From Rhodanobacteraceae bacterium ZG21-1 (GTDB lineage: Bacteria > Pseudomonadota > Gammaproteobacteria > Xanthomonadales > Rhodanobacteraceae), in assembly GCA_021390615.1 (NCBI GenBank), contig JAJEJU010000024.1, positions 1,302,001 through 1,366,000 on the forward strand: 64,000 nucleotides of DNA. The letters are read 5' to 3'. A model generated the notes under the pieces. That model did not search any database. It was not told the origin of the DNA and saw nothing but the letters and a program-made list of their open reading frames with translations. This document shows, in pieces, positions 14,748 to 38,359 of the stretch (position 1 is its first letter; every line of letters starts with the position of its first letter). Made by a program: the position numbers and the translations under genes.

Positions 14748-14807
14748 TATTCCTGCAATGCACCATTTCAGGGTATTTTATCGCTTCCCCAGGTTACATC
14801 GCCGATC

Positions 14808-15818: not shown

Positions 15819-15863
15819 GCCCTTCCGGCGCCCCTTTCGCCTTTCGCTTTTCCGGTATTGAAG

Positions 15864-18923: not shown

Positions 18924-18968
18924 GCCGGGCAGGGCGCCAGCCGCTTCGTGTAATGCCAGCCTGAAGCC

Positions 18969-19757: not shown

Positions 19758-19872
19758 GCAGGGGCTGCGCGGGGGCAGGCAACTCGCTGCCTGACATCCG
19801 CCGCGACAGCGGCCGTCGATTTGGGGCAGACTCGTTCGTCGTGCCCATGACACCACTCGACGAGCGCAGCCG

Positions 19873-21339: not shown

Positions 21340-21345
21340 GGGCGA

Positions 21346-21786: not shown

Positions 21787-21802
21787 GCCGCGTCTCCACA
21801 TG

Positions 21803-21823
21803 AATGTTATATGCAATAACATT
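21803..21823. promoter_or_regulatory. TetR operator, perfect inverted repeat
   Basis: AATGTTAT (21803-21810) and ATAACATT (21816-21823) are perfect 8-base arms around the spacer ATGCA, between the DUF2214 gene and the divergent tetR. Size and symmetry fit a TetR-family operator placed over the DUF2214 promoter. Confidence 0.72.
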
Positions 21824-21851
21824 AAGTGCGGCGATGGGCTCGGTCAAGTGA

Positions 21852-21870
21852 ATGTTTTAGGCTAAGACAT
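21852..21870. promoter_or_regulatory. Second, imperfect TetR operator overlapping the tetR start
   Basis: ATGTTTTAG / CTAAGACAT (one mismatch) around a single central G. It shares the ATGTT...ACAT ends of the first operator and overlaps the tetR ATG, consistent with autorepression. Confidence 0.55.
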
Positions 21871-22534
21871 GGCTAAGAAGAACGGCTCCGCGCAAAAGCG
21901 GCCCAGCCGCTACCACCACGGCGACCTGCGCGCCGCACTCCTGCAGCTGAGCTTCGAGGAAATCGAGCGCAGCGGCTTCGAGTCGATCAGCCTGGCTGCG
22001 TTGGCGAAGGCCTTGCACGTCTCTCAGGCCGCGCCCTACCGGCATTTTGCCGATCGCGAGGCGCTGCTCGTGGCTGTCGCCACCACGGGCTTCCAGCGCT
22101 TCGGCGAAGCGCTGCTTGCCGCGCTTGTCGGCCAGCCTGCCAGGCGTCATCTGGGCTGCCTGGCGCGGGCCTATGTCGATTTCGCGCTGGCGAGTCCACA
22201 GCTGTACCGCCTGATGTTCGGCTCGCGCCTGCTTGCGGCCGCCGCGGCGACCGACGCGCTCAAGCTGGCTGCCGACGCGAGCTTTGCGAGCTTGCTGGCG
22301 GTGTTCGAAGCGGAGATGGCTACGCCGCGCGCGCAACGCGAAGCCCTCGGTGCCTGGAGTTCCCTGCACGGCCTGGTGCTGCTGTGGCAGGAAGGCTTGT
22401 TGAGTTCCGAAAATGCGCCGATCGATCTGGCCGAGTTGGTCGATGATGCCGTGAGGCGCCATGAGCCGCCGCACCTCGGCGGACGACCTGCCGAGGCACC
22501 AAAGCGGCGGCGGCCGTCAGGCTCCCGAGGATGA
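21869..22534 (+). CDS. TetR-family transcriptional regulator
   Basis: 221 residues. The N-terminal helix-turn-helix has Y-H-H-G-D-L-R-A-A-L-L and S-L-A-A-L-A-K-A-L-H-V-S-Q-A-A-P-Y-R-H-F-A. The ligand-binding half resembles the WHG-type C-terminal domain (L-Y-R-L-M-F-G-S, A-W-S-S-L-H-G-L-V). A basic, Arg/Pro-rich tail follows. It probably represses the divergent DUF2214 gene and itself through the two palindromes. The signal is unknown. Confidence 0.92.
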   Translation: MAKKNGSAQKRPSRYHHGDLRAALLQLSFEEIERSGFESISLAALAKALHVSQAAPYRHFADREALLVAVATTGFQRFGEALLAALVGQPARRHLGCLARAYVDFALASPQLYRLMFGSRLLAAAAATDALKLAADASFASLLAVFEAEMATPRAQREALGAWSSLHGLVLLWQEGLLSSENAPIDLAELVDDAVRRHEPPHLGGRPAEAPKRRRPSGSRG

Positions 22535-22598
22535 ATGCCTAGGGACCGTGTGGCTTGTTAGCGCTGCGGTTGTGGCTGCAAAACAGGAGAGGCAAGTC

Positions 22599-23258
22599 AT
22601 GGTTTTATCCGATGTCGCGACGTTCGATCGCCAGGGCTTCGCGATGCTTCCCCGGCTGATTGCGGACGAGACCTGCGATGCCCTGATCGATGCCGTCGGC
22701 GACGCTGCCGATACGAAGGCCGGAACGCGCCGCCTGCTGGACCTGGCCTGCGTGGCGGATACCGCAGAGCAGCTGCGCCAGCACCCTGCGGTGGCGGCCC
22801 TGCTGCCGCCCCAGTCGAAGGTGATGCAGTGCAATCTGTTCGCCAAGCATGCGGCGACCAATTGGGCCGTGACGCCGCATCAGGATCTGAGCATTCCCGT
22901 CGCGCAGCCTCACGGGTTGCCAGGCTGGTCGGGCTGGTCGCGCAAGGAAGGCTGCTGGTTCGCCCAGCCGCCGGTGGCCATCCTGCAACAGTTGGTGGCT
23001 GTGCGATTGCAACTCGATGACGGCGATCCCGCGGCGGGACCGCTGGAGGTGGTGCCAGGCTCGCATGCGCTGGGCCGGCTTTCCGCCGCAGCCTTGTCCC
23101 GACAGGCAGCGCTCACCCGATTCAGCTGTGTCGTGTCGCGCGGCGGGGCTCTGCTGATGCGCCCGTTGATCGTGCATGCCTCGGGCAAATCGAAGGTCAA
23201 TACGCCGCGCCGCGTCTTGCACTTCGTTTATGGCCCGTCGCGCTTGCTCGATGCCTGA
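22599..23258 (+). CDS. PhyH-like Fe(II)/2-oxoglutarate dioxygenase
   Basis: 219 residues of the phytanoyl-CoA dioxygenase fold. The HxD iron-binding motif appears as T-P-H-Q-D-L-S-I-P, the double-stranded beta-helix continues with A-G-P-L-E-V-V-P-G-S-H, and the distal His is in L-I-V-H-A-S-G-K-S with the 2-oxoglutarate Arg nearby (P-R-R-V-L-H-F). The substrate is unknown; such enzymes hydroxylate lipids, amino acids or natural products. A strong AGGAGAGG site precedes ATG 22599. It follows tetR by about 65 bases on the same strand but is probably an independent function. Confidence 0.87.
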   Translation: MVLSDVATFDRQGFAMLPRLIADETCDALIDAVGDAADTKAGTRRLLDLACVADTAEQLRQHPAVAALLPPQSKVMQCNLFAKHAATNWAVTPHQDLSIPVAQPHGLPGWSGWSRKEGCWFAQPPVAILQQLVAVRLQLDDGDPAAGPLEVVPGSHALGRLSAAALSRQAALTRFSCVVSRGGALLMRPLIVHASGKSKVNTPRRVLHFVYGPSRLLDA

Positions 23259-23377
23259 AGGATGACCGAGGCACGCGGGCTGGAAAATGGCGAGGTCTGA
23301 TATACGGGTAATCCCGAAGCGCATCGACATTTCTGCGCGCTTCGGCGGCCGCAGTTAAATGGAATCGGAGGCCCAAG

Positions 23378-23476
23378 ATGCCCAGCTGGATCGCTTCGCG
23401 CCTGCGTCGGATTGCAGCTCGCCCACTCATGGCGCGTGCAAGACACCCGCCAAAATCGGGCCTGCCCATGCCCTGA
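23378..23476 (+). CDS. Possible 32-residue cationic small protein
   Basis: A 32-codon frame with a CGGAGG ribosome binding site 6 bases before its ATG. The product begins M-P-S-W-I-A-S-R-L-R-R-I and contains seven Arg/Lys, with an amphipathic-looking first half. It lies alone in the convergent gap between the dioxygenase and the outer-membrane gene. No family recognised; it may be chance. Confidence 0.3.
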   Translation: MPSWIASRLRRIAARPLMARARHPPKSGLPMP

Positions 23477-23525
23477 TCGCCGCTCGCCTCTATCCCCACA
23501 GCGACCAGGGCATGTCGTCTCTAGC

Positions 23526-24359
23526 TCAGAAACGCAGGCGCAGGAACAGCGAAGGACCGTCGAGCTTCATGTCCAGATCGTCGTTGAAGCTATGCCTGCG
23601 CTGGTTGAGGCTGATCTTGGTGTAGTCGTATTCCGCGCCGACGCCGACGTTGTGCCAAGGGAACCATTCCAGGCCGAGCGCGGCGTTGTAGATGTGGCCG
23701 CTGAGGTTTCCGCCATTCTTCTTGACGCCTGAGGCGTCGGCGTAGATGCGCCAGCTGTCGCTGAAGGCGTGCCGCCAGCCGAGCTGCAGCATCGGCGCCC
23801 AGGCGCTGTCGTTGCTCGAGGTCGATGCCTCGCCGAGACTGGCGCCGTTCAACGAGGCGTCGCCGCTGACACCGGCCCGCACGCGGTAATACGCCGCGCC
23901 GAGACCGACGCCGAACACGTCGCTTTCGTGCCCGAACCACCAGCGATAGGCCGCGCTGCCCATGTCGAAGTCGAGCTTGCCGCGTACCGTCGCGGAAGCG
24001 GCATAGTCGTTGCCGCCGTAGCTGATGCCGGCATCCAGGGTTTTGCTGCGAGTGCGGTTGATGCTGGTGTAGTCGAACGAGAAGCCCTGGCTGTCGCCGA
24101 TTAGGAAATCCAGGCGTGCACGCGGCACGGTCTTGTGGTCCTGGAAACCCAGGTCGTGCTCGAGATTGACGTTGCCCTTGAGCTGGCCGCTCTTGTCGCT
24201 GGCACCGATGTTGGTGTCGCTGTTGGCGTAGAAGCCGCCCAGCCAGATGCTGACCCGGTCCAAGGCGGGCGACTGGTCGGCGAGGGCGGCGGAGCTGGCC
24301 AGCATGAATGGCGCGAAGGCAAGGGCGGAGGCGATCGTCTTGCGAGGTATGGGATTCAT
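23526..24359 (-). CDS. Outer-membrane beta-barrel protein
   Basis: 277 residues. A Sec signal peptide (basic start, then an Ala/Phe-rich stretch ending A-L-A) precedes alternating amphipathic beta strands and a terminal L-F-L-R-L-R-F, the C-terminal Phe being the outer-membrane insertion signal. Around 8-12 strands are likely, with Gly/Asn-rich loops. Function unknown; it looks like a small OmpW/porin-like barrel. Start ATG 24359 gives the signal peptide; the frame remains open further upstream without homology. It is divergent from the NRPS gene across a long regulatory region. Confidence 0.82.
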   Translation of the reverse strand: MNPIPRKTIASALAFAPFMLASSAALADQSPALDRVSIWLGGFYANSDTNIGASDKSGQLKGNVNLEHDLGFQDHKTVPRARLDFLIGDSQGFSFDYTSINRTRSKTLDAGISYGGNDYAASATVRGKLDFDMGSAAYRWWFGHESDVFGVGLGAAYYRVRAGVSGDASLNGASLGEASTSSNDSAWAPMLQLGWRHAFSDSWRIYADASGVKKNGGNLSGHIYNAALGLEWFPWHNVGVGAEYDYTKISLNQRRHSFNDDLDMKLDGPSLFLRLRF

Positions 24360-24608
24360 CGATGTTTCCTGCATGCGAGGGGAGAGGCGTAGTCGCGTGG
24401 ATTCCCTTGCCCTCCATGCTATGCACGGCGCGTGCACGCGGCGTGCATGCGACGCACGCGGCACAGTCGTGCATGTCATTCACGGCATTGGCGACCAGTG
24501 CGATGCGCACAGAAACAAGCTCGTCGCGGCTTAACACGTGGCGCACACTGACGTGCTTTCGCCAAGCACTTCTCGCCCACGCAGCGGATGGATCGGCCCG
24601 GGCACAGC

Positions 24609-24629
24609 CATCGAATTGGCAAATCGATG
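24609..24629. promoter_or_regulatory. Imperfect palindrome upstream of the NRPS
   Basis: CATCGAATT / AAATCGATG (one mismatch) with a 3-base centre. Position and symmetry suggest a protein-binding site; no regulator can be named. Confidence 0.35.
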
Positions 24630-24788
24630 CACAAAAACTGCTGCAATGCAATAAGTGTGATGATGCACACGTGGCGCGTATGGACAAGGCCACCTGCGGG
24701 CGCCGAAACTCAAACCCGAAATAAACGCTGATTATGCGTGCCAGGCTGGCATTTCCCCCGGCGAATTAAGTCGATTTCTTTACAGGAG

Positions 24789-24808
24789 CAAATCATGCCC
24801 ATGATTTG
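24789..24808. promoter_or_regulatory. Perfect 20-bp palindrome upstream of the NRPS
   Basis: CAAATCATG-CC-CATGATTTG, 9-base perfect arms, about 240 bases before the NRPS start. It overlaps the start of the seven-codon leader frame, so a bound protein or an RNA hairpin here could block its translation. Confidence 0.5.
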
Positions 24809-24818
24809 TTGCAGGTAG
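24795..24818 (+). CDS. Possible seven-residue leader peptide (MPMICCR)
   Basis: AGGAG at 24784-24788 lies 6 bases before ATG 24795; the frame runs seven codons to TAG. The spacing is ideal and the peptide has adjacent Cys codons. Leader peptides of this size control operons by ribosome stalling, but nothing here proves translation. The same bases form the palindrome at 24789-24808. Confidence 0.25.
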   Translation: MPMICCR

Positions 24819-25046
24819 CGGCTTAGCTATCGCTTTAAGAGCGGATGTGCGTAATTCGAGCGAGCCCTCGTCGAGGGCGCGTCAGGCAGTCTTTGCTCGA
24901 TGATCTGGACGCGGCATTCGAGATTGAGGCATGGCAGTCGATGACGCAGCGTTGCCGATACCCATCGGCAGCGACGGGGTTTTGCGGCCCAAACGAAGGC
25001 CGGGCGCAGGCCCGGAACGATGGCTGATGAGCCGGGAGAAGACGCC

Positions 25047-28000
25047 ATGAACGACGAGCCTAGCGCACTGCTGCCGCTGACCACTGCTCAGCGCGGACTC
25101 TGGGTAGGACACAAAATTGGCGCAACGGACGCGACCATGAATATTGCCGAGGCGGTGGAAATCTGCGGGCCGGTCCAGCCCGAGATATTCATGCGCGCCT
25201 TGTGGCAGGTCGCCGCCGAGGTCGATGCCGTGCGAGCCGGCATTATCGAGCGCGATGGCAGGCCGTTCCAATTCATCCGTGCGCATTATCATGGCGATTT
25301 TCCATATATCGATTATAGCGAGGAAAGCGATCCGCGGAAATTAATCGACCGCTGGATGCTGGATGAGCTGAAGAAGCCGGTCGATCTCGCCAAGGACCCA
25401 TTATGGGTAAATGCCTTGTTCAAGGCTTCCGATAATCGCTATTTCTGGTATCAGCGCGCCCATCATGTGATCTACGACGGCTACAGCGGCGGCATGATCG
25501 CCAGGCGCCAGGCCGAGCTGTACACCGCCTTCGCCGAGGGCAGGGAGGCGCCGCCTTGCGAATTCGGCTCGCTGCAGACGCTGGTCGAGGCCGAGGCGGC
25601 CTATCGCGATTCGGATCGTTGCCGGCGCGACCGCGAATTCTGGAAGGCGCAGCTGGCCGACTTGCCTGAGGCGGTATCCCTCGCACGCGGCGGACATCGC
25701 AACGGCATGGGCGGCCTGCGTCGCGGCAGCGGTTACCTGTCGAGCGATACCGCGGCGCGCCTGGCCGCGCTGGGGCGCGAGTCGTCGACCAGCCTGCCGC
25801 AGGTGTTGATCGCCCTGGTGGCGGCGTATTACCAGCGCGTCACCGGCGCAGCCGACCTGGTCATCGGCATGCCGGTCTCCGGCCGCATCAATGCGGCGCT
25901 GCGCAGCGCACCGGGCATGGTCGCCAACGCGGTGACCCTGCGCCTGCGCTTCACGCCGCAGATGACGGCCATCGAGTTGTTCGAGCAGGTGGCACGCGTG
26001 GTGCGGCAGGCCCTGCGGCACCAGCAGTATCGCTACGAGGATTTGCGCCGCGACCTCGGCCTGGTCGGCCAGGCGCAGCACATCGCCTGGCTGGGCGTGA
26101 ATATCGAGCCCTTCGATTATCAGCTGAGCTTCGCCGGCGCGCGGGCGACGCCGCACAACGTCTCGAACGGCTCGGCCGAGGATCTCACCGTCTTCGTGTA
26201 TGACCGCGGCGACGGCGGCAGCCTGCGCTTCGATTTCGACGCCAATCCCGCCCTGTACAGCGAAGCCGAGCTGGACGAGCACTGCCGCCGCCTGACCCGG
26301 CTGGTCGAGGCCGTGCTGGCCGATCCCGCGCAGTCGTTGCGGCAGATCGACATGCTCGGCGAACAGGAACGCGAGCGCCTGTTGCAGCGCTGGAACGAGA
26401 CCGCGCAGGCCGTACCACCGGAAAGCCTGCCTGCGCTGGTCGCCCGGCAGGCACGGCTGTCGCCGCTGGCGCCGGCGCTGGTCTGCGACGGTCGTCTGCT
26501 TAGCTATCGCGAGCTGCATCGGCGCAGCGTGCGCCAGGCTCGGCAGTTGCTGGCCGACGGCATCCGCCCGGGCGACATCGTTGCGGTCGCCTTGCCGCGC
26601 AGCGAGGTGTTGCCGATCGTGCTGCTCGGCATCCTGCGCTGCGGCGCGGCCTATCTGCCGATCGATCCGCTCGCGCCGCTGGAACGCACCGCGATGATGC
26701 TGGACGATGCGGCGCCGACCGCGATGATCGCCAGCCCCGAACTGGCGGTCCGCCATGCACGTGGCGGGCTGCTGATGCTCGGTCCGGAGGAGGCCGACGC
26801 CTCGCTGGAAGACATGCCCGACGAGCCGGACTTCACCACGCCGGAAGCCACCGCCTACGTGCTCTACACCTCGGGTTCCACCGGGCGGCCGAAGGGCGTC
26901 GAAGTCACCCACCGCAACCTGGCCAACTTCCTGCACGGCATGCGCATGCAGCTTGCGCCCACGCCGACCGACCGCTTTCTCGCGGTGACCACGATCGGCT
27001 TCGACATCGCCGTGCTGGAGCTGTTCCTGCCCTTGACCGCCGGCGCCAGCGTAGTGATCGCCGGCAGCGACAGCGTGCGCCATCCGCCTACGCTGGCGCG
27101 CCTGATCCAGCACAGCGGGATCACCCGCATGCAGGCCACGCCCTCGTTGTGGCGTGTGCTGCTGGCCTGTCCGGCGCTGCGCCTGGACGGCGTGCATGCC
27201 CTGGTCGGCGGCGAAGCGTTGGATACGGAACTGGCGGCACGACTGCAGCGCCAGGCAGCCAGGCTCACCCAGTTCTACGGACCGACCGAGACCACGGTGT
27301 GGTCGACCGCGCATGAGCTGACGGAGCCAGGCTCCACGCCGCCGCCGATCGGACGTCCAATCGCCAACACGCGCCTGTACGTGCTCGACGACGAACGCCA
27401 GCTGGTGCCGACCGGCGCCGTCGGTGAGCTGTACATCGGCGGCGAAGGCGTGGCCAAGGGCTACCTCAACCATCCCCAGCTCAGCGTGGAGCGCTTCCTG
27501 CCCGATCCTTTCGTCGAGGGCGAGCAGCGCATGTATCGCACCGGCGATCTGGTCTACTGGAACGACGACGCTACGCTGCAGTTCGTCGGACGCGCCGATC
27601 AGCAGGTGAAGATCCGCGGGCATCGCGTGGAGCTGGGCGAAATCGAGAGCCGACTGGTGCGCCATGCCAGCGTGGCCGAAGCAGCAGTGACCGCACAGCG
27701 CGACGGCGAAGGCGGCACCGGCCTGTGCGCCTATCTGGTGGCCGCTCCCGGTGCGCAGATCGTGCTGGATGCCTTGCGCGGCTACCTGGCCGGCTATCTG
27801 CCCGACTACATGATGCCGGCGCGCTTCATGCTGCTCGACGCCATGCCGTTGACCCCCAGCGGCAAGCTGGACCGCAAGGCGCTGCCGCAGCCCGAGCGCA
27901 GCGAGCGCGCCGCCTACGTGGCGCCGGTCGGCGCGCTGGAGCAGAAGCTGGCGGCCTTGTGGCAGCAGATCTTCGCTGTGGAGCGGGTGGGCCGGCACGA

Positions 28001-29060
28001 GAACTTCTTCGAGCTGGGCGGCGATTCGCTCACCGCTGCGGCGATGATGGCGCGCTTTCCCGAACACTTCGGCATGGAGTTGCCGCTAGGCAGCCTGTTC
28101 GAGACGCCCAGCGTGGCGGGCCTGGCGGCCTACATGCAGCGCGCCGAGAGCCGGCCCGACCCGCTCGGCGGCTTGCTGCCGTTGCGTCCCGGCGCACAGG
28201 CGCGCCCGCTGTTCTGCATCCATCCGGTGGTCGGCCTGAGCTGGTCTTACGCCAACCTGCTGCGGCATCTCGACGACAGCCTGCCGCTGTACGGCCTGCA
28301 GTCGCGCGGCCTGCGTGCGGGCGGCGCGCTGCCGGCCAGCATCGACGAGATGGCCGCGGGCTATCTCGAACAGATGCGCCAGATCCAGCCGCAAGGACCG
28401 TATCGTCTGCTCGGCTGGTCACTCGGCGGCCTGCTCGCGCATGCGGTGGCCGCACGGCTGCAGGTGTTGGGAGAGCGGGTCGAACTGCTGGCCATGCTCG
28501 ACGCCTTTCCCTTCGTCACGGCTCATGGTCCCATGATCGGGCAGGACGAAGCAGGCGAGGCGAGGACGATCCTGCAGTTCCTCGGCTTCCATCGGCAGGC
28601 ACGCGAGAATCCGCCGGCCGGCATGGATCAGCTGGCCGACCTGCTGTGCCGCGAATACGACATCTTCGGCATGCCGCTGGTGCGCGAACTGATGAAGGAC
28701 GATCCGCAACTGGTCGGACGCGTGGCCGCCGCCACGCGCCATCACCTGGAACTGGCGCGCCGGCATGTGCCCGAGCGGATCCAGGCCGACGTGATGTTCT
28801 TCCACGCCACGCAGCGGGAAGAGGCCGAGCTGGACGGCGTGCTGCAGGATCGGCCGGCGGCCTGGCGCTCGTATGTCGACGGCATGCTGGAGGTGCATGC
28901 GGTGCCCTGCCATCACCAGGCCATGCTGGATGCCGCGCCGGCGGCGCAGATCGGCCGGCTGCTGCAGCGTCGGCTCGACGCGCTGGCGGCCGCACCGGTG
29001 CGCACGCCAGCGGCACGGCAGGCTCCGGCGGTGCGCGAGCGTGTCGCCGCCCATGCATAA
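25047..29060 (+). CDS. Single-module nonribosomal peptide synthetase C-A-T-TE, glycine-like code
   Basis: About 1337 residues with four domains: condensation (about 10-430, active site H-H-V-I-Y-D-G at 139-145), adenylation (about 455-950, with Y-V-L-Y-T-S-G-S-T-G-R-P-K-G and T-G-D-L), thiolation (E-L-G-G-D-S-L, phosphopantetheine Ser about 994) and thioesterase (G-W-S-L-G-G, Ser about 1125). The layout is that of EntF. The ten specificity residues read D-I-L-Q-L-G-F-V-W-K, very close to the known glycine code DILQLGLIWK. So it probably loads glycine, joins it to a carrier- or CoA-bound acyl donor, and releases the product by hydrolysis or esterification. No donor carrier protein, MbtH protein or phosphopantetheinyl transferase is in the window. 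I chose ATG 25047, which has a GGGAG site, over ATG 25020. It overlaps the next gene by 8 bases. Confidence 0.93.
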   Translation: MNDEPSALLPLTTAQRGLWVGHKIGATDATMNIAEAVEICGPVQPEIFMRALWQVAAEVDAVRAGIIERDGRPFQFIRAHYHGDFPYIDYSEESDPRKLIDRWMLDELKKPVDLAKDPLWVNALFKASDNRYFWYQRAHHVIYDGYSGGMIARRQAELYTAFAEGREAPPCEFGSLQTLVEAEAAYRDSDRCRRDREFWKAQLADLPEAVSLARGGHRNGMGGLRRGSGYLSSDTAARLAALGRESSTSLPQVLIALVAAYYQRVTGAADLVIGMPVSGRINAALRSAPGMVANAVTLRLRFTPQMTAIELFEQVARVVRQALRHQQYRYEDLRRDLGLVGQAQHIAWLGVNIEPFDYQLSFAGARATPHNVSNGSAEDLTVFVYDRGDGGSLRFDFDANPALYSEAELDEHCRRLTRLVEAVLADPAQSLRQIDMLGEQERERLLQRWNETAQAVPPESLPALVARQARLSPLAPALVCDGRLLSYRELHRRSVRQARQLLADGIRPGDIVAVALPRSEVLPIVLLGILRCGAAYLPIDPLAPLERTAMMLDDAAPTAMIASPELAVRHARGGLLMLGPEEADASLEDMPDEPDFTTPEATAYVLYTSGSTGRPKGVEVTHRNLANFLHGMRMQLAPTPTDRFLAVTTIGFDIAVLELFLPLTAGASVVIAGSDSVRHPPTLARLIQHSGITRMQATPSLWRVLLACPALRLDGVHALVGGEALDTELAARLQRQAARLTQFYGPTETTVWSTAHELTEPGSTPPPIGRPIANTRLYVLDDERQLVPTGAVGELYIGGEGVAKGYLNHPQLSVERFLPDPFVEGEQRMYRTGDLVYWNDDATLQFVGRADQQVKIRGHRVELGEIESRLVRHASVAEAAVTAQRDGEGGTGLCAYLVAAPGAQIVLDALRGYLAGYLPDYMMPARFMLLDAMPLTPSGKLDRKALPQPERSERAAYVAPVGALEQKLAALWQQIFAVERVGRHENFFELGGDSLTAAAMMARFPEHFGMELPLGSLFETPSVAGLAAYMQRAESRPDPLGGLLPLRPGAQARPLFCIHPVVGLSWSYANLLRHLDDSLPLYGLQSRGLRAGGALPASIDEMAAGYLEQMRQIQPQGPYRLLGWSLGGLLAHAVAARLQVLGERVELLAMLDAFPFVTAHGPMIGQDEAGEARTILQFLGFHRQARENPPAGMDQLADLLCREYDIFGMPLVRELMKDDPQLVGRVAAATRHHLELARRHVPERIQADVMFFHATQREEAELDGVLQDRPAAWRSYVDGMLEVHAVPCHHQAMLDAAPAAQIGRLLQRRLDALAAAPVRTPAARQAPAVRERVAAHA

Positions 29061-30345
29061 GCCGCTCGCGCCAGGACGATCGATCGCGATCTTCACGATC
29101 GGCACGCAGGGCGACATCCGCCCCTGCGTGGCGCTGGGCCTCGGCCTGCAGCGCGCCGGCCATCCGGTGCGCATCGTCACCAGCGACAACTTCGCCGGGC
29201 TGGTGCGCGGTGCCGGCCTGGAGTTCTTTCCGCTCACCAGCGATTTCCAGGCCCTGCTGGAGATGGATCGCAGCATCGCCGACCAGGGCCTGGACATGCG
29301 CGCGATGGCGCGGATCTTCCGCGGCCACTTCGCCGACTGGGCCACGCGCTGGGTAGCCGAGGGGCAGGCGGCATGCGAAGGCGCCGGCTTGTTGGTGGGG
29401 GTAGGCAACAGCACCTTGCTGGCCAAGTCGCTGGCTGAAGCCCGAGGCTTGCCGTTCGTCTGCGCCCAACTGCAGCCGCTCACTCCGTCGAGGGTGTTGC
29501 CGCCGATGGTGCTGGCCGGCACGCGGCAGCGGCTGCCTGCCTGGCTGAGCATGGGCGCTTATCAGCTGCTGCGCCTGCTGGTATGGCACGTGATGCGGCC
29601 GGCGATCAACGACATCGTGCGCCCGCAGCTGGGCCTGCGCCGCTATCCCTGGTACGGGCCGTACTTCAACACCGGACGGCAGGACAGCCGGGTGGTCTAC
29701 GGCTTCAGCCAGCACGTGCTGCCGCGGCCCGCGGACTGGCCGGACAGCGCGCAGATCGCCGGCTACTGGTTCCTCGATCAGCCCGCCTGGCAGCCGCCGG
29801 AAGCCCTGCACGCCTTCCTCGATGCCGGTCCGGCGCCGGTCTATATCGGCTTCGGCAGCATGGTGAGCAGCCAGGCGGACCGCTTCACCGCCACCGTGCT
29901 GGACGCGGTGCGGCGCAGCGGCCGCAGGGCGGTGCTCGCCACCGGCTGGGGCGGCCTGGCCGGCCAGGATGGCGCGCTGGACGAGCAGATTTTCTTCATC
30001 CGCCACGCGCCGCACGACTGGCTGTTTCCGCGCATGGCCGCCGCCGTGCATCACGGCGGGGCGGGCACCACAGCTGCAGCCGCGCGAGCCGGGATTCCTT
30101 CGGTAGTGGTGCCGTTCTACGGCGATCAGCCGTTCTGGGCGCGTTGCCTGCAGCGCGCCGGCGCCGCGCCGGCTGCGGTAGACCGCCGCGACCTGCAGGC
30201 GGTAGCTCTGGCTACGGCGATGGACGTCGCCCTGGGCGAGGACATCCGCCAGGCGGCCCAGGCGCTCGGCAGCCGGGTGCGCGCCGAAGACGGGGTGAGT
30301 CAGGCCGTGGATTGCCTGCGCGGCTGGGGCTTGCTGGCCAGCTGA
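29053..30345 (+). CDS. UGT/MGT-type glycosyltransferase coupled to the NRPS
   Basis: 430-residue GT-B glycosyltransferase of the GT1 family (macrolide, sterol and rhamnolipid type). The N-terminal I-F-T-I-G-T-Q-G-D-I-R-P-C-V is the usual acceptor-domain start, and H-H-G-G-A-G-T-T-A-A-A-A-R-A-G at about 330 is the nucleotide-sugar-binding signature, followed by V-P-F-Y-G-D-Q-P-F-W-A. The start overlaps the NRPS stop by 8 bases, so the enzymes are almost certainly made together. It probably glycosylates the NRPS product or its lipid acceptor. No signal peptide; cytoplasmic or membrane-associated. Convergent with a tetR gene. Confidence 0.92.
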   Translation: MHKPLAPGRSIAIFTIGTQGDIRPCVALGLGLQRAGHPVRIVTSDNFAGLVRGAGLEFFPLTSDFQALLEMDRSIADQGLDMRAMARIFRGHFADWATRWVAEGQAACEGAGLLVGVGNSTLLAKSLAEARGLPFVCAQLQPLTPSRVLPPMVLAGTRQRLPAWLSMGAYQLLRLLVWHVMRPAINDIVRPQLGLRRYPWYGPYFNTGRQDSRVVYGFSQHVLPRPADWPDSAQIAGYWFLDQPAWQPPEALHAFLDAGPAPVYIGFGSMVSSQADRFTATVLDAVRRSGRRAVLATGWGGLAGQDGALDEQIFFIRHAPHDWLFPRMAAAVHHGGAGTTAAAARAGIPSVVVPFYGDQPFWARCLQRAGAAPAAVDRRDLQAVALATAMDVALGEDIRQAAQALGSRVRAEDGVSQAVDCLRGWGLLAS

Positions 30346-30428
30346 GCCGGCGTGTCTGGCTCAGGCGTGCAGACTTCGAGGCGGCCGTGCTCTAGGTGGC
30401 GCCTGTTCGCGCCGTGCCGGCTCGGCGC

Positions 30429-31040
30429 TCAGGAGCCGAAGAAAGTGGCGACGAAGATGGTGCTCAGCACGTGCTGCGCGGAGGCTTCCGGCAGCTCGTT
30501 GGGCATGCTGATGTTGAAATAGCGCACGCCGTCGACCAGCCCCATCATGGCCAGGGCGAGATCGGGTGCGCTGGCCGGCGGCGGCCGCTCCAGCCGCTCG
30601 CAGAACTTCGCAATGAAGTAGGCGATGATGTCGCGCTTTTCCAGCATCAGCGCATTCAGGCGATGTCGGAACTTGGCGTCCCGCGCGGCATGCAGGCGCG
30701 CTTCGGCCCACAACACGTAGCTGATGTTGTCGCCGTAGCACTGGCTGTAGAAGTTCGCCAGTTGTTCTTGCAGGCCCTTCTGGGTCAGGCCGTTGTCGAG
30801 CAGGGACTGCAGGTCCTGCTGGATGCTCAGGTGATCGCGCTTGAGCAGCTCGATGAACAGGTCGGCCTTGCTCTTGAAGTTCGAATAGAACGCGCCGCGC
30901 GTATAGCCGGCGTGGCCGGCGATGTTCTCCACGCTGCTCGCCGCCAGGCCTTTCTTGGCGATGGTGACCGCTGCGGCGTCGAGCAGGCGCAGGCGCGTCT
31001 GCTCGCGGCTCTCTTCCCGGGTCAATCGTTGGCGTGCCAT
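30429..31040 (-). CDS. TetR-family regulator of the RND efflux operon
   Basis: 203 residues. The N-terminal DNA-binding domain has R-L-R-L-L-D-A-A-A-V-T-I-A-K-K-G and Y-T-R-G-A-F-Y-S-N-F-K-S-K-A-D-L, typical of AcrR/TtgR-like repressors of efflux pumps. It is divergent from the MFP-RND-OMF operon across a long imperfect palindrome (31086-31119), which is its likely operator. It may respond to the compound made by the neighbouring NRPS/glycosyltransferase genes. Confidence 0.93.
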   Translation of the reverse strand: MARQRLTREESREQTRLRLLDAAAVTIAKKGLAASSVENIAGHAGYTRGAFYSNFKSKADLFIELLKRDHLSIQQDLQSLLDNGLTQKGLQEQLANFYSQCYGDNISYVLWAEARLHAARDAKFRHRLNALMLEKRDIIAYFIAKFCERLERPPPASAPDLALAMMGLVDGVRYFNISMPNELPEASAQHVLSTIFVATFFGS

Positions 31041-31085
31041 GCCGGCATGCTAGCACGCCATGCATTCCGGCACATGGATGCTTGG

Positions 31086-31119
31086 TTGAATTCAGATACA
31101 ACTATGTATCAAAATTCAT
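31086..31119. promoter_or_regulatory. TetR operator between tetR and the RND operon
   Basis: Left arm TTGAATTCAGATAC and right arm GTATCAAAATTCAT agree with dyad symmetry at 11 of 14 positions around a 6-base centre; the inner GATAC/GTATC is perfect. It is AT-rich inside GC-rich DNA, and its TTGAAT looks like a -35 element, so repressor binding would cover the promoters. Confidence 0.65.
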
Positions 31120-31193
31120 CCATGTACCAAAGTGACGATGCCGGCGGGGCGAATCCGCCGGGCGAACGTCCCCACGCCCCAAGGAGTCGAGCT

Positions 31194-32330
31194 GTGAGCG
31201 ATCGAATGCATGGCCTGCCGCGGATGGTTCGGCGGCGGTGGCCCGGGTTGGCGCTGCCAGCCCTCGTGGTGATCGGGCTGGCCGGCTGCAGTCAGCGTCC
31301 GCCCGAAGCGGTGAGTGCGGTGCCGATCATCGCCTGGCAGGTGCAGGCGGCCGACGGCGCGGCTGGCGTGCGCCTGCCGGGCGACGTGCATGCGCGCTAC
31401 GAGATGCCGCTGTCGTTCCGCATCGGCGGAAAGCTGGCCGCGCGCTACGTCAGTCCCGGCGACGAAGTGAGGAAGGGCGCCAAGCTGGCCGAGCTGGATC
31501 CGGCGGACGTCGCCAGCGCCCGCGCCGCGGCCGAGGCTGCGGTGAAGGCCGCCGAGAGCCGCTATGCCTTTGCCGCCCAGCAATTGCAGCGCGACGAAGC
31601 GCAGAGCCGGCAGAATCTGATCAGCCAGCTGCAACTGGAGCAGACTCGCGATGCCTATGCCGCGGCACTGTCCGGCCGCGAACAGGCCAGGCAGCAGCTG
31701 GTGCAGGCGCGCGACCAGCAGGGCTACGCCACCCTGGTGGCGGATCACGACGGCACCGTCACCAGCATGCAGGCCGACGTGGGCCAGGTGCTCGCGGCAG
31801 GTCAGGCGGTGTTCGGCTTTGCCTGGTCGGGCGAACGCGAAATCCATGTCGACGTGCCCGAAAGCCGCATCGGCGGCATCGCGCCGGGGCAGGCGGTGCA
31901 GGTGAGTCTGCCGGCCTTGCCCGGTTACGCCGGCCAAGCCCATGTGCGCGAAGTGGCTTCCGCCGCGGATCCGCAGTCGCGCACCTATCTGGTCAAGCTG
32001 GCGCTGGATCAGCCGCCGCCCGGCGTGCGCCTGGGCATGACCGCCGAGGCCAGCTGGAACGCGACCGGGCAGGCATCGTCGGCGCAGCGCATTCCCGCCA
32101 GCGCCTTGTTTCACCAGGGCGAGCGGCCGGCCGTGTGGGTGGTGCGCCCGGCGGATTCGACGCTCGAACTGAGGCCGGTCACGGTGCTGCGCTATCTCGA
32201 GCGCGACGTGCTGCTGGACGGCGGCCTGCATGTCGGCGAGCGCATCGTGGCGCAGGGCGTGCACACCGTGTCGGTTGGCGAGAAGGTCACGCCGATCGCC
32301 CCGCCGCATGCGGAGGACGCGCCGCAATGA
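31194..32330 (+). CDS. RND efflux periplasmic adaptor (membrane fusion) lipoprotein
   Basis: 378 residues. The N-terminal lipobox G-L-A-G-C (Cys32) predicts an inner-membrane-anchored lipoprotein. Then come a lipoyl/barrel-sandwich half (Y-E-M-P-L-S-F-R-I-G-G-K), a coiled-coil hairpin rich in Ala/Gln (about 95-180), the second half-motif (V-A-D-H-D-G-T-V-T-S) and beta-barrel/membrane-proximal domains. It links the RND pump to the outer-membrane channel. I chose GTG 31194, which has an AAGGAG site at good spacing; the frame runs open much further upstream without homology. The stop overlaps the pump start (ATGA). Confidence 0.92.
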   Translation: MSDRMHGLPRMVRRRWPGLALPALVVIGLAGCSQRPPEAVSAVPIIAWQVQAADGAAGVRLPGDVHARYEMPLSFRIGGKLAARYVSPGDEVRKGAKLAELDPADVASARAAAEAAVKAAESRYAFAAQQLQRDEAQSRQNLISQLQLEQTRDAYAAALSGREQARQQLVQARDQQGYATLVADHDGTVTSMQADVGQVLAAGQAVFGFAWSGEREIHVDVPESRIGGIAPGQAVQVSLPALPGYAGQAHVREVASAADPQSRTYLVKLALDQPPPGVRLGMTAEASWNATGQASSAQRIPASALFHQGERPAVWVVRPADSTLELRPVTVLRYLERDVLLDGGLHVGERIVAQGVHTVSVGEKVTPIAPPHAEDAPQ

Positions 32331-35300
32331 GCGCGGACGAACGCTTCAATCTGTCGGCCTGGGCGCTGCGCCACAAGTCCCTGGTGTTTTTCCTGATGGG
32401 CATGATGGCGCTGTTCGGCGCCTTGTCCTACCGCCAGCTGTCGCAGTCGGAGGATCCGCCGTTCACCTTCAAGATCATGGTGATCCAGAGCTTCTGGCCC
32501 GGCGCGACGGCGCGCCAGGTGCAGGAAGAGGTCACCGACCGCATCGCGCGCAAGCTGCAGGAAACGCCTTCGGTGGATTTCCTGCAGAGCTATTCGCGCC
32601 CGGGCGAATCGCTGGTGTTCTTCAACATCAAGGATTCGGCGCCCGCTTCGACCGTGCCCGACACCTGGTACCAGGTGCGCAAGAAGATCGGCGACATCGC
32701 CGGCCAGCTGCCGCAAGGCGTGCAGGGCCCGTTCTTCAACGACGAGTTCGGCGACGTCTATACCAACATCTACGCGCTCGAAGGCGACGGCTACACGCCG
32801 GCGCAACTGCACGACTATGCCGACCAGCTGCGCGTCGAGCTGCTGCGGGTGCCCGGCGTAGCCAAGGTCGACTACTTCGGCGACCAGAACCAGCACGTCT
32901 ACATCGACATCGACAACGCGCGGCTCGGCAAGCTGGGCATCGCGCCGCAGCAGATCGGCCAGGCCCTGGCCGCGCAGAACGCAGTGGCCTCCCCCGGCGT
33001 GCTGACCACGGCCGGGGATCGCGTCTTCATCCGGCCCAGCGGGCAGTTCGAAAGCATGGACGCGCTGGCCAACACCTTGCTGCACGTGGACGGCCGCAGC
33101 TTCCGCCTCGGCGACATCGCCAGCATCCGGCGAGGCTATGACGAGCCGATGGGCGCCCAGCTGCGCTTCATGGGCCAGCCGGTGCTCGGCGTCGGCATCA
33201 CCATGCAGCCCGGCGGCGACGTGATCCAGCTGGGCAAGGCGCTGGACCATGCCACCGCGGACCTGCAGAAGCGCCTGCCGGCCGGCCTGAAGCTGGCGCC
33301 GATCACCAGCATGCCGCATGCGGTGGCGCATTCGGTCGACGACTTCCTCGAATCGGTGGCCGAGGCGGTGGGCATCGTGTTGCTGGTGAGCCTGCTCAGC
33401 CTGGGCTTCCGCACCGGCATGGTGGTGGTGATCTCGATTCCCTTCGTGCTGGCCGCCACTGCCTTGCTGATGGACATCTTCGGCATCGGCCTGCACAAGG
33501 TCTCGCTGGGCACCTTGATCCTCGCCCTGGGCCTGCTGGTCGACGACGCGATCATCGCGGTGGAGATGATGGCGGTGAAGCTGGAGCAGGGCTGGAGCCG
33601 CGTGCGCGCGGCGGCGTTCGCCTACACCAGCACGGCGTTCCCGATGCTCACCGGCACCCTGGTGACGGTGTCCGGCTTCCTGCCGATCGCGCTGGCCAAG
33701 TCGGGCACGGGCGAATACACCCGCTCGATCTTCGAGGTGTCGGCGATCGCCTTGCTGGTTTCCTGGGTCGCGGCGGTGATCCTGATTCCGCTGCTGGGCT
33801 ACTACCTGCTGCCCGAGCGTCATGCACATGCCGCGCCTGGCCAGGCCTGGTGGCAGCGCCTGCTGCCGTCGCGCCGGCAGGCGGCGCTGCCTGCCAAGGC
33901 GCCCGCACCCGTGCACGACGGCCATGACGTCGACATCTACGATACGGCGTTCTATCGGCGCTTCCGCGCGCTGCTGGACGCCTGCCTGCGCGGCCGCTGG
34001 ATCGTGCTGATCGCCGCCATCGGCCTGTTCGTGGTGGCCATGGCGGGCTTCGGCCTGGTACCCAAGCAATTTTTCCCGAGTTCGGACCGGCCGGAGCTGA
34101 TGGTCGATCTCAGCCTGCCGGAGGGCTCGTCCATCGAGGCGACGCTGCACCAGGTGGAACGGCTGGAAGCGGCGATCCGAGGCCGCCCGGAAGTGGCCAG
34201 CTACGCCAGCTTCGTGGGCAGCGGCGCGCCGCGCTTCTACCTGCCGCTGGATCAGAAGCTGCCGCAGCCGAATTTCGGGCAGTTCGTGATCACCGCCAAG
34301 GACATCGCCCAGCGCGAGCATTTGGCCGTCTATCTGGACGGCGTGCTCAAGCGGGACTTCAGCGGCGTGCGCAGCCGCGTCAGCCGCCTGGAGAACGGTC
34401 CGCCGGTGGGTTTCCCGGTGCAGTTCCGGGTCAGCGGCGACGACATCGCGACCGTGCGTGGCATCGCCGAGCAGGTGGCCGGGGTGATGCGCTCCGACGC
34501 CCACACCACCAATGTGCAGTTCGACTGGGACGAACCGGGCGAACGCTCCGTCCGCTTCGATATCGACCAGGTCAAGGCGCGCCAGCTCGGCATCACCTCC
34601 GAGGACGTCGCCCAGTTCCTGGCCATGAGCCTGTCCGGCACCACGGTGACCCAGCTGCGCGAACGCGACAAGCTGATCGCGGTGGATCTGCGCGCCGCCG
34701 GCGGCGACCGCGTCCACCCGGATCAGATCGAGCGACTGGCCATCCCGACGCCGAACGGCACGGCGATTCCGCTGGGCCAGCTCGGCCGGGTCAGCTACGG
34801 GCTGGAATACGGGGTGATCTGGGAGCGCGACCGCCAGCCCACCATCATCGTCGAGTCCGACACCCGCGGCGGCGCGCAAGGCGTGGACGTCACCAACACC
34901 ATCGACCAGAAGCTGGCCGAGATCCGCAGCCATCTGCCGATCGGCTACCGGGTCGAAGTCGGTGGCTCGGTGGAGCAGAGCGGCAAGGCCCAGGGTTCCA
35001 TCAACGCGCAGATGCCGCTGATGCTGGTGGCGGTGCTGACCCTGCTGATGATCCAGCTGCAGAGCCTGGGACGCACGGTGATGGTGGTGCTCACCGCGCC
35101 GCTCGGCCTGATCGGCGTGGTCGGCGCGCTGCTGCTGTTCGGCCAGCCGTTCGGCTTCGTCGCCATGCTCGGCACCATCGCCATGTTCGGCATCATCATG
35201 CGCAACTCGGTGATCCTGGTGGACCAGATCGAGCAGGACATCAGCGCCGGACATCCGCGCTGGGAGGCGATCGTCGGCGCCACCGTGCGGCGCTTCCGTC

Positions 35301-35521
35301 CGATCACGCTGACCGCGGCGGCCGCCGTGCTGGCCTTGATCCCGCTGCTGCGCAGCAACTTCTTCGGACCGATGGCCACCGCGCTGATGGGCGGCATCAC
35401 GGTGGCGACCATTCTGACTTTGTTCTATTTGCCGGCGCTGTACGCCACGTGGTTCCGCGTGCGCAACAACGAAAAGGCCGCAGACGACAAGCCGGCCGCA
35501 ACGCAGGAGGTTCAGGCATGA
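32327..35521 (+). CDS. RND-family efflux pump, inner-membrane permease
   Basis: 1064 residues, 12 helices and two large periplasmic loops: the proton-driven pump of a tripartite system. Helix 4 has G-L-L-V-D-D-A-I-I-A-V-E (about 402-413), the Asp pair of the proton relay. Repeats of the N-terminal loop (S-F-W-P-G-A-T-A-R-Q-V-Q-E) and G-L-I-G-V-V-G near helix 10-11 fit the TriC/MexK-like group rather than AcrB. The cytoplasmic loop between helices 6 and 7 is long and His/Ala-rich. Start ATG 32327 overlaps the adaptor stop, and the pump stop overlaps the OMF start; both are ATGA. Confidence 0.96.
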   Translation: MSADERFNLSAWALRHKSLVFFLMGMMALFGALSYRQLSQSEDPPFTFKIMVIQSFWPGATARQVQEEVTDRIARKLQETPSVDFLQSYSRPGESLVFFNIKDSAPASTVPDTWYQVRKKIGDIAGQLPQGVQGPFFNDEFGDVYTNIYALEGDGYTPAQLHDYADQLRVELLRVPGVAKVDYFGDQNQHVYIDIDNARLGKLGIAPQQIGQALAAQNAVASPGVLTTAGDRVFIRPSGQFESMDALANTLLHVDGRSFRLGDIASIRRGYDEPMGAQLRFMGQPVLGVGITMQPGGDVIQLGKALDHATADLQKRLPAGLKLAPITSMPHAVAHSVDDFLESVAEAVGIVLLVSLLSLGFRTGMVVVISIPFVLAATALLMDIFGIGLHKVSLGTLILALGLLVDDAIIAVEMMAVKLEQGWSRVRAAAFAYTSTAFPMLTGTLVTVSGFLPIALAKSGTGEYTRSIFEVSAIALLVSWVAAVILIPLLGYYLLPERHAHAAPGQAWWQRLLPSRRQAALPAKAPAPVHDGHDVDIYDTAFYRRFRALLDACLRGRWIVLIAAIGLFVVAMAGFGLVPKQFFPSSDRPELMVDLSLPEGSSIEATLHQVERLEAAIRGRPEVASYASFVGSGAPRFYLPLDQKLPQPNFGQFVITAKDIAQREHLAVYLDGVLKRDFSGVRSRVSRLENGPPVGFPVQFRVSGDDIATVRGIAEQVAGVMRSDAHTTNVQFDWDEPGERSVRFDIDQVKARQLGITSEDVAQFLAMSLSGTTVTQLRERDKLIAVDLRAAGGDRVHPDQIERLAIPTPNGTAIPLGQLGRVSYGLEYGVIWERDRQPTIIVESDTRGGAQGVDVTNTIDQKLAEIRSHLPIGYRVEVGGSVEQSGKAQGSINAQMPLMLVAVLTLLMIQLQSLGRTVMVVLTAPLGLIGVVGALLLFGQPFGFVAMLGTIAMFGIIMRNSVILVDQIEQDISAGHPRWEAIVGATVRRFRPITLTAAAAVLALIPLLRSNFFGPMATALMGGITVATILTLFYLPALYATWFRVRNNEKAADDKPAATQEVQA

Positions 35522-37005
35522 GACGCGTCAAGATCGAGACGACGCAGATGGCGCGCCTGTCGCTCGCGGCCGGCGTGCTGGCCCTATCGGCCTGTTCCTT
35601 CGCGCCGCTGCCGCAACTGCCCGCGCCCAAGTCCGCGCCGGGCTACGCAGTGCAGCCACCGCCAGCGCAAAGCGCTTCCGCCGACGGCGTGGCCCAGCGT
35701 TTCAGCCTGGGCGCGCGACCGGTGCCGGCATGGTGGCGCCAATACGGCTCCGACACGCTGGACGCCTGGGTCGACGAGGGGCTGCAGCACAACGCCTCGC
35801 TGGAAGCGACCCGCCACAGCCTCGCCGCCGCACGCCAGTTGCTGCGCGCACGGACCGGCCAGAACGAATTGCCTTCGCTGGATGCCGCGGCCCAGGCCAA
35901 CCGCCAGCGCGCCGTGGGGCTGCCCGAGCTGGGGCCGCCGACCAATCTCTACGACATCTACGCCGGTCAGCTGCAGCTGAGCTATACCTTCGACCTGTTC
36001 GGCGCCACCCGGCACGGCAATGCGCAGGCGCGGGCCGAGGTGGATCAGCAGTCCTACGAGTTCGACGCGGCGAAGCGCGCCCTGGCGGCGAATATCGTGA
36101 TCGCGGCGATCGACGCGGCCTCGCTGGCCGAGCAGGTCGAGATCAGCGAGCGGCTGTCCGCGCTCGCACACGAACAGGCGCGCCTGACCGAACAGTCTTA
36201 CCAGCTGGGCGCTGCCGCGCACGGGGATGTGCTGCTGGCCCGGCAGAACGCTGCCTCGATCGATGCCAGCCTGGCGCCCTTGCGCACGCAGGCGCTGCGG
36301 GCGCGCCATGCGCTGGCCGTGCTGATGGGGCGCACGCCGGATCAGGCGCCGTCGAGCCTGGCCCTGGCGCAGTTGCACTTGCCTGCCGAGGTGCCGGTCA
36401 GCGTACCGTCGGCCTTGCTGAAACAGCGCCCCGATGTGCTGGCGGCCGAGGCGGCGGTGCAGGCAGCCTCGGCCCGGGTCGGCGTGGCGACGGCGCAATT
36501 GTTCCCGCAGATATCGCTGTCGGCCTCGACCGGCTCGGCAGCCTTCAAGGCCGCTTCGCTGTTTACCGGCAGCGCGGCCATCTGGGGGGCAGGCGTGTCG
36601 ATCGCGCAGCCGATCTTCCACGGCGGCGCCCTGATCGCACAGCGGAAGGCGGCGGTGGAGGATTACCAGGCGTCCCTGGCGCAGTACCGGCAGACCGCGC
36701 TCAACGCATTCCAGAACGTCGCCGACACGCTGACCGCACTCGACCAGGACGCCTCGGCGCTGCAGGCCGCCCAGGCTGGCGCGGCCAGCGCGCAGCAGTC
36801 CTATACAGACGCCGAGGCGCGCTATCGGCTGGGCGCAGCGTCGTATCCGAGCATGCTGGCCGGCGAGCTGCGCTGGCAGAACGCCCGCCTCGGCGAAACC
36901 CAAAGCCGTGCCGCTCGCCTGACCGATACGGCGGCGCTGTTCCAGGCAATGGGTGCGCCGCTGGACGAACCGGCCCAGGCGGCGCGTCCAGATGCGCCAC
37001 CTTGA
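35518..37005 (+). CDS. NodT-type outer-membrane efflux lipoprotein
   Basis: 495 residues, TolC-fold outer-membrane factor of the NodT group. The lipobox is L-S-A-C (Cys26); W-W-R-Q-Y-G-S-D-T-L begins the conserved repeat, and two helical/strand repeats follow, including L-K-Q-R-P-D-V-L-A-A-E. It completes the MFP-RND-OMF set by ATGA overlap, so the three are translated as one unit. It ends before a hairpin shared with the convergent glycosyltransferase gene. Confidence 0.94.
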   Translation: MRRVKIETTQMARLSLAAGVLALSACSFAPLPQLPAPKSAPGYAVQPPPAQSASADGVAQRFSLGARPVPAWWRQYGSDTLDAWVDEGLQHNASLEATRHSLAAARQLLRARTGQNELPSLDAAAQANRQRAVGLPELGPPTNLYDIYAGQLQLSYTFDLFGATRHGNAQARAEVDQQSYEFDAAKRALAANIVIAAIDAASLAEQVEISERLSALAHEQARLTEQSYQLGAAAHGDVLLARQNAASIDASLAPLRTQALRARHALAVLMGRTPDQAPSSLALAQLHLPAEVPVSVPSALLKQRPDVLAAEAAVQAASARVGVATAQLFPQISLSASTGSAAFKAASLFTGSAAIWGAGVSIAQPIFHGGALIAQRKAAVEDYQASLAQYRQTALNAFQNVADTLTALDQDASALQAAQAGAASAQQSYTDAEARYRLGAASYPSMLAGELRWQNARLGETQSRAARLTDTAALFQAMGAPLDEPAQAARPDAPP

Positions 37006-37056
37006 GCTCTGCATGCACGGTATCGACGACGGGAACGCAGCGCGCTGAGCATGGCC

Positions 37057-37090
37057 TGCCGTGGCGCGCGACTTGCCTGGCGCCACGGCA
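37057..37090. terminator. Bidirectional hairpin between OMF and glycosyltransferase genes
   Basis: Perfect 11-base stem TGCCGTGGCGC / GCGCCACGGCA with a 12-base loop in the short gap between two convergent genes. No T tract; assigned by position and stem strength. Confidence 0.65.
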
Positions 37091-37132
37091 AGCCGATCGA
37101 GCAGGCTGCGCGCCAGCGTCCATCCACCGATC

Positions 37133-38359
37133 TTATCCAGCGCTATCGCTTGGACTTGCCAGCCGACCGAGGCACTGCGCGGCGATGCGTGCGCCATCCA
37201 TGACCATCCGGCCGGCCAGAGCTTGCGCACGCGCAGCGACTTGCGGCTGCAGGCATTCGCCCAGCATGGAAACCATGTCGTCGGTGCTCAGCTGCCGCTG
37301 ATCGGAGCCCGATACGCCGATGCCCAGCGTCTTTACGCGATGCGCCCAGTAGTACTGGTCGTAGAGGTGCGGCACCACCACCTGGCCCTTGCCGGCGCGT
37401 GCCGCTGCCGCGGTGGTGCCGGCGCCGCCGTGGTGCACTACGGCCAGCACGCGCGGGAACAGCACTTCGTGGTCTACGTCGTCGATCGCCAGGCAGTCGT
37501 CGGCGCTGTCGGCGGGCAGCAGCTGGCCCCAGCCTTGCGACACGATGGCGCGCAGGCCCAGCGCACGCGCCGCCTCGACCAGCAGCGGGCCGGTGTGTTC
37601 GCTTGAGCGCATGCTGCCGAAGCCGAAATAGACCGGCGGCTCGCCGGCGGCGAGGAAGCGCTCGACGCGCTCGGGCAGGGGATCGCCCCCACGCATGAAC
37701 CAGGCACCGGTCTGCACGACGTCCAGGCCCTCCGCCAGGCCTGCAGGCGCAAGCACCGGGTCGGCCGCGAGCCACGGATGGTCGGTAATGATGTGCGCGT
37801 GGACGCTTTCCACCGGCGCCAGGCCGAGCTCGGCGCGCGCCTCATTCATGGCGGTCCGGAACAGCGCATCGAAGCTCTGCTGATCCTCGCGCCACAGCGC
37901 GCGATTTTCGTCGCTGCCGAGGGTTTGCGAGTAATGCGTGCCCATCTTCGACGGCGGATGGCTGGGCGACGGCAGCACGCTAGGCGCATAAGCGGTGAAC
38001 ACATAGGGAACTCCACGCGCCTCGGCGACGGAACGGGTGGCGAACTGCAGCACGTCGGCGGCCACCGCCAGCGCGCAGCCCTGGATCGCTTCGGCCAGCA
38101 CCGGGAACTGCGCACGCACGGTGTCGATGGCGAGTTGCTGCAAGTGCTCGGCCGAAGCTCGGACTGGCGCGCCGCGCGCAAGCTGCTGCAGGTCGGGGCC
38201 GATCGGGATGCAGGCCAGGCCGAACGATTCCACCCATGCCTTGAAGTTCGGAGGCACGCACAGGCGCGGCTCATGTCCCAGCGCACGCAACTCGAGCGCC
38301 AGGGCGAGCAGCGGCTGCACCGAGCCGCGCGAACCCACCGACGAAAGAAGTATGTTCAT
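37133..38359 (-). CDS. Second UGT-type glycosyltransferase (GtfA/B-like)
   Basis: 408-residue GT1-family glycosyltransferase. N-terminal M-N-I-L-L-S-S-V-G-S-R-G-S-V-Q-P is the vancomycin-type GtfA/GtfB start, F-G-F-G-S-M-R-S is in the hinge region, and H-H-G-G-A-G-T-T-A-A-A-A-R-A-G at about 306 with V-V-P-H-L-Y-D-Q-Y-Y-W-A binds the nucleotide sugar. It differs from the first glycosyltransferase in its N-terminal half, so it probably uses another acceptor or adds a second sugar. Convergent with the RND operon and transcribed from its own promoter, so its link to the NRPS product rests on proximity. Confidence 0.9.
   Translation of the reverse strand: MNILLSSVGSRGSVQPLLALALELRALGHEPRLCVPPNFKAWVESFGLACIPIGPDLQQLARGAPVRASAEHLQQLAIDTVRAQFPVLAEAIQGCALAVAADVLQFATRSVAEARGVPYVFTAYAPSVLPSPSHPPSKMGTHYSQTLGSDENRALWREDQQSFDALFRTAMNEARAELGLAPVESVHAHIITDHPWLAADPVLAPAGLAEGLDVVQTGAWFMRGGDPLPERVERFLAAGEPPVYFGFGSMRSSEHTGPLLVEAARALGLRAIVSQGWGQLLPADSADDCLAIDDVDHEVLFPRVLAVVHHGGAGTTAAAARAGKGQVVVPHLYDQYYWAHRVKTLGIGVSGSDQRQLSTDDMVSMLGECLQPQVAARAQALAGRMVMDGARIAAQCLGRLASPSDSAG

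Follow-up and report, generated by a model that had tools for sequence, protein, structure and literature searches.

The window, i.e., the whole stretch of 64,000 nucleotides from Rhodanobacteraceae bacterium ZG21-1 that was analyzed, carries a one-module NRPS gene followed by a glycosyltransferase gene (GT1), a tetR gene, the three genes of an RND efflux pump and a second glycosyltransferase gene (GT2). ORF and domain searches bore out this gene list and the positions given in the original prediction (Table 1), with domain matches across the window ranging from E 1e-12 to 1e-153 in the Pfam scan, far beyond chance. The NRPS frame is open from 25020, and the ATG at 25047, which has a GGAG upstream, is the more likely start. 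The predicted overlap between the NRPS and a UGT-type glycosyltransferase was found to be 8 bp (29053-29060), with the start of GT1 lying within the 3' end of the NRPS gene, and the predicted full coupling of the adaptor, permease and outer membrane factor genes was also found, as ATGA overlaps at both the MFP/RND and the RND/OMF junctions. The original prediction gave no orientation for tetR and GT2; the tetR gene is divergent from the pump genes and convergent to GT1. The second UGT-type glycosyltransferase is present as well, but it is not part of the pump operon since it is encoded on the minus strand, convergent to that operon. An Rfam search yielded zero matches, and a tRNA-Pro(cgg) called by ARAGORN on the minus strand (36667-36754) was taken as spurious, as it lies inside the OMF coding frame.

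Table 1. Features of the window discussed in the text (positions are those of the window).
Feature	Position	Strand	Remarks
Cytochrome bo oxidase genes (COX2, COX1, COX3) and SURF1	14634..19757	+	apparent ancestral neighbor of the pump
SURF1-tetR stretch, about 10.7 kb	19758..30428	.	MFS, DUF2214, TetR, PhyH and OMP genes, and NRPS-GT1
One-module NRPS, C-A-PCP-TE	25047..29060	+	Pfam scan: Condensation / AMP-binding / PP-binding / Thioesterase
GT1, GT-B glycosyltransferase, sterol-glucosyltransferase (UGT51)-like group	29053..30345	+	
TetR repressor, MexL-like position	30429..31040	-	domain search; probably separate unit from NRPS-GT1
Palindromic operator (putative), tetR-MFP intergenic	31090..31115	.	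ATTCAGATACA-ACTA-TGTATCAAAAT; conserved in relatives
RND periplasmic adaptor (MFP), MexJ/TriA-like	31116..32330	+	probably separate unit from NRPS-GT1
RND permease, best solved relative MexK	32327..35521	+	probably separate unit from NRPS-GT1
Outer membrane factor (OMF), NodT/OprM type	35518..37005	+	probably separate unit from NRPS-GT1
GT2, orphan UGT/Rgt-like glycosyltransferase	37133..38359	-	convergent to pump

GT1 was searched against the genomes of the family, and approximately 20 kb was fetched around each match. Close GT1 relatives (56-74% identity) were found in 17 other family genomes, and in all 17 an NRPS gene is located directly upstream, with 55-66% identity over the full NRPS length. 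A scan of named genomes showed that the pair is also found in Dyella, Frateuria, Lysobacter, Xanthomonas maliensis, Nitrospirillum, Rhizobium, Zhongshania and Spongiibacter; in Acidomonas the NRPS homologue is convergent to the glycosyltransferase gene, and Acetobacter is similar but with the genes in pieces. GT1 relatives without an NRPS were present in many phyla in the same scan. In the NRPS protein tree, the window copy groups with those of Rhodanobacteraceae and lies next to a clade of the Dyella type, a placement that is moderately supported (91/97). Judged by this gene order and sequence similarity, the NRPS and GT1 are a conserved two-gene unit.

While the original prediction could match the arrangement to no named pathway, a close published counterpart was described in 2013. 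Xanthomonas albilineans has two pairs of a short NRPS gene and a glycosyltransferase gene, XALc_0364/0365 and XALc_1145/1144; their NRPS genes (4,047 and 4,011 bp) each encode one C-A-PCP-TE module and are overlapped by the glycosyltransferase genes by 4 and 8 bp, XALc_0364 has a glycine signature, both C domains are of the starter type, and the predicted product consists of glycine, a beta-hydroxy acid and a sugar (PMC3849588). The window pair likewise has one C-A-PCP-TE module, encoded by about 4 kb, with a glycine signature and a glycosyltransferase gene that overlaps its 3' end by a few bp; compared by published description, it differs in belonging to another family of the same order and in happening to adjoin a MexJK-like pump. 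The same study named Alcanivorax borkumensis ABO_1784 (NRPS), ABO_1783 (glycosyltransferase) and ABO_1782 (PPTase) as relatives (PMC3849588), and ABO_1783 is an RhlB-like candidate glycosyltransferase for the glycine-glucolipid of A. borkumensis, which is composed of glucose, four esterified 3-hydroxy fatty acids and amide-linked glycine and whose biosynthesis was not fully elucidated as of 2023 (PMC10710537). By the 2013 comparison, ABO_1784/1783 are the same gene pair as that in the window, and the glycine-glucolipid fits the activities predicted here; a PPTase gene adjoins the pair in Alcanivorax, whereas none is found beside the window pair. By its domains, specificity code and layout, the window pair belongs to an already described NRPS-glycosyltransferase arrangement, and this little-studied glycolipid family, previously represented by Xanthomonas and Alcanivorax, is extended to Rhodanobacteraceae, Alphaproteobacteria and Spongiibacteraceae.

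The ten-residue specificity code of the A domain, DILQVGFVWK, differs at two positions, both conservative, from that of the glycine-activating first module of DhbF (DILQVGLIWK; PMC4169593), and glycine is predicted as the substrate. A DILQ.G..WK-type code is kept in most relatives. Five Dyella-type orthologues (L032, L033, L036, L037 and L045) have DILW[IV]GLVLK instead of the glycine-type code, and by this code switch the predicted A-domain substrate differs within the orthologous group. When the C domain alone was compared with solved structures, the best match was 7C1K (267 bits), which is RzmA-Cs, a starter C domain using acyl-CoA (PMC7804268), followed by the CDA starter C domain 4JN3 (199 bits) and EntF (174 bits), with ObiF1 also among the matches; on the basis of these best PDB matches, the C domain appears most similar to starter C domains of the lipo-initiating type. 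The HHxxxDG, GGDSL and GWSLG motifs are all intact in the window NRPS, and the best solved relative of GT1 is a yeast-type sterol 3-beta-glucosyltransferase, a lipid glucosyltransferase.

A glycosylated N-acyl-glycine is the likely product of the NRPS and GT1. To this extent the glycosylated acyl-glycine of the original prediction is well supported, by the glycine code, the starter-like C domain, the lipid-type glycosyltransferase and the published relatives; the pump and the second glycosyltransferase, which it had counted as parts of the same cluster, were not found beside NRPS-GT1 in any of the 17 family relatives. In the proposed pathway, the A domain would activate glycine and load it onto the PCP, the starter-type C domain would N-acylate the glycine with a fatty acyl-CoA (3-hydroxyacyl by analogy), the TE would release the N-acyl-glycine in free-acid form, and a sugar, probably glucose, would be added by GT1 to the hydroxyl of the acyl chain, giving a minimal counterpart of the glycine-glucolipid of Alcanivorax. 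Here, we infer the order of release and glycosylation, the acyl length, the sugar and the location of the product in the cell.

The efflux genes have relatives of their own. At a threshold of E 1e-30, 34 of 197 family genomes have a TetR relative, and all 20 of these that were fetched have tetR, MFP, RND and OMF genes in the layout of the window, with RND permeases that are 80-84% identical; neither an NRPS nor a glycosyltransferase gene was found beside the pump in these 20 relatives. Among solved structures, the RND permease best matches MexK (1168 bits, full length); adaptor matches are a chain of the TriABC type (6VEJ) and MexJ. In Pseudomonas aeruginosa, MexJK is repressed by the TetR-family protein MexL and pairs with OprM or OpmH (PMC9323910). 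As in MexL-MexJK, a TetR repressor, an adaptor and an RND permease are found together in the window, whereas the window operon, unlike P. aeruginosa MexJK, carries its own OMF gene. These matches identify the window pump as a MexL/MexJK-like efflux operon. A palindrome-like motif, TCARATACA-N4-TGTATTAGA, is shared by the tetR-MFP intergenic regions of the relatives compared and occurs once in the window, in the gap between tetR and the adaptor gene, suggesting that the pump is probably repressed by its own TetR at this predicted operator. A search of the window did not find the motif upstream of the NRPS, and shared regulation of the NRPS by the pump's TetR was rejected since the only operator copy is at the pump.

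Comparison of all window ORFs with the pump loci of the 20 relatives showed that COX1, COX3 and SURF1, which span 15858-19757 in the window, are also neighbors of the pump in 12 of these relatives (cyoABC-SURF1). The distance between SURF1 and tetR is 55-329 bp in these 12 relatives and 10,671 bp in the window, and in 6 of the 12 genomes with a cyo-linked pump NRPS-GT1 is located elsewhere. The GC content does not set the approximately 10.7 kb stretch apart. These conserved neighborhoods place the ancestral position of the pump behind cyo-SURF1, and the simplest account of the window is that SURF1 and tetR were separated by an insertion of approximately 10.7 kb in its lineage. NRPS-GT1 would then lie next to the pump because of this insertion, which makes the adjacency an accident; adjacency to an RND pump is therefore a poor guide here, the real neighbor of the pump being the cytochrome bo oxidase operon.

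In the original prediction, the NRPS, both glycosyltransferases and the RND pump formed one dedicated cluster that makes, glycosylates and exports a compound. These genes do adjoin in the window genome, and the pump was found in 14 of 18 genomes with the NRPS compared with 20 of 179 others (Fisher p 3e-9, a count that ignores relatedness); 20 genomes carry the pump without the NRPS, and this co-occurrence at the genome level is confounded by phylogeny. Yet in all 17 family relatives the TetR, MFP, RND and GT2 genes of the window were not found beside NRPS-GT1, the weak OMF matches (26-29%) near some of these pairs being unrelated outer membrane factors, while the pump with its tetR stands alone in all 20 relatives and is linked to cyo-SURF1 in 12; the original prediction had itself named both of these patterns as grounds for its refutation. 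The confinement of the tetR operator to the pump, the opposite strand and single-genome occurrence of GT2 and the fact that the Alcanivorax glycine-glucolipid remains cell-associated (PMC10710537) also argue against one export cluster, which we consider very unlikely even though an operon with the order NRPS, GT/adaptor fusion, two RND permeases and second glycosyltransferase is found in one genome, that of Nitrospirillum amazonense BR 11622; its RND permeases are only 24-25% identical to the window permease and its pump genes are not orthologous to those of the window. Given genome-level co-occurrence and this single operon, it is conceivable, though improbable, that the NRPS-GT pathway is in some cases linked to RND export. 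In particular, there is a slim chance that, once the insertion had occurred, the cyo-linked MexJK-like pump of this lineage was recruited as an exporter of the glycosylated acyl-glycine; if so, this would be a second case, beside the Nitrospirillum operon, of this glycolipid pathway being tied to an RND exporter, and the first transporter for this glycolipid class. It is quite probable that the locus consists of two independent units lying side by side, an NRPS-GT1 glycolipid pathway and a TetR-MFP-RND-OMF efflux operon, with GT2 as a third, lone gene.

For the product of NRPS-GT1, an alternative is that the C domain takes an aryl-CoA or another acyl-CoA, or that the hydroxyl to which GT1 adds a sugar is not part of the NRPS product. 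The matches of the C domain to EntF and ObiF1, its placement by best structure matches rather than by a tree, and the GT1 relatives that lack an NRPS are consistent with this alternative, but the 8-bp overlap and the strict pairing of the two genes, the fatty-acyl starter RzmA-Cs as best C-domain match and the placement of the X. albilineans twins in the starter clade (PMC3849588) make it unlikely. Far less likely still is a decaying pair without any product, as was proposed for Xanthomonas pairs where a PPTase is absent (PMC3849588), considering that the core motifs are all intact, the frames are full-length and the window's own genome has three ACPS-superfamily matches and many other NRPSs elsewhere.

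Compared with relatives carrying extended operons, GT1 and the NRPS of the window are the minimal form of the pathway. The pair runs on into further genes, with short overlaps where measured, in a Bryobacterales MAG and several genomes of the Dyella/Frateuria type; these genes encode PapA-related condensation-like acyltransferases together with a GT2-family enzyme close to the rhamnosyltransferase model TIGR01556, or a penicillin acylase. NRPS-GT1 is followed by PapA-like acyltransferases and an RhlC-like GT2-family enzyme in L043 (8919-17875, minus strand), L109 and L110, and in Frateuria defendens (L108:6419-8629) and related genomes (L038:6646-9570) the next gene after the pair encodes a penicillin acylase (Ntn hydrolase). 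The PapA/RhlC-type operons suggest that larger glycine glycolipids are made in the Dyella relatives and the Bryobacterales MAG, and the extended Dyella/Frateuria operons are better targets for learning how the polyester and sugar parts of the family arise. In the window's own genome, a search for the accessory acyltransferase gave only weak matches inside other NRPSs, and a search for the RhlC-like enzyme gave 30% identity on another contig and no close copy; since neither enzyme has a close copy, the chemistry in the window may be simpler than that of the glycine-glucolipid, and the locus amounts to a minimal two-gene form.

In the Nitrospirillum genome, the glycosyltransferase frame is open into the RND adaptor (L112:9995-12490, 831 aa), and this apparent fusion looks like a physical coupling of synthesis and export; as a single-genome case, it was not used as support for an export link. 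In the 13 stretches inspected from other Azospirillaceae, the glycosyltransferase was found alone, with neither NRPS nor RND genes. The X. maliensis NRPS (L113) has SHLVIDG, not HHxxxDG, at the aligned C-domain position. A sulfotransferase gene is located upstream of the pair in Zhongshania and Spongiibacter (L115:4285-5274 and L119:4399-5382), and in Spongiibacter a PPTase gene comes right after the glycosyltransferase gene (L119:11221-12051).

GT2 of the window is 34% identical to GT1, and a family search at 1e-40 or better found no match besides the GT1 of one genome; by this search, it is an orphan, unique to the window genome within the family. Adjoining GT2 is a gene for an XVIPCD-domain protein (38923-39810), this domain being a Xanthomonadales type IV secretion effector signal, and an AraC regulator is encoded at 40155-40976.
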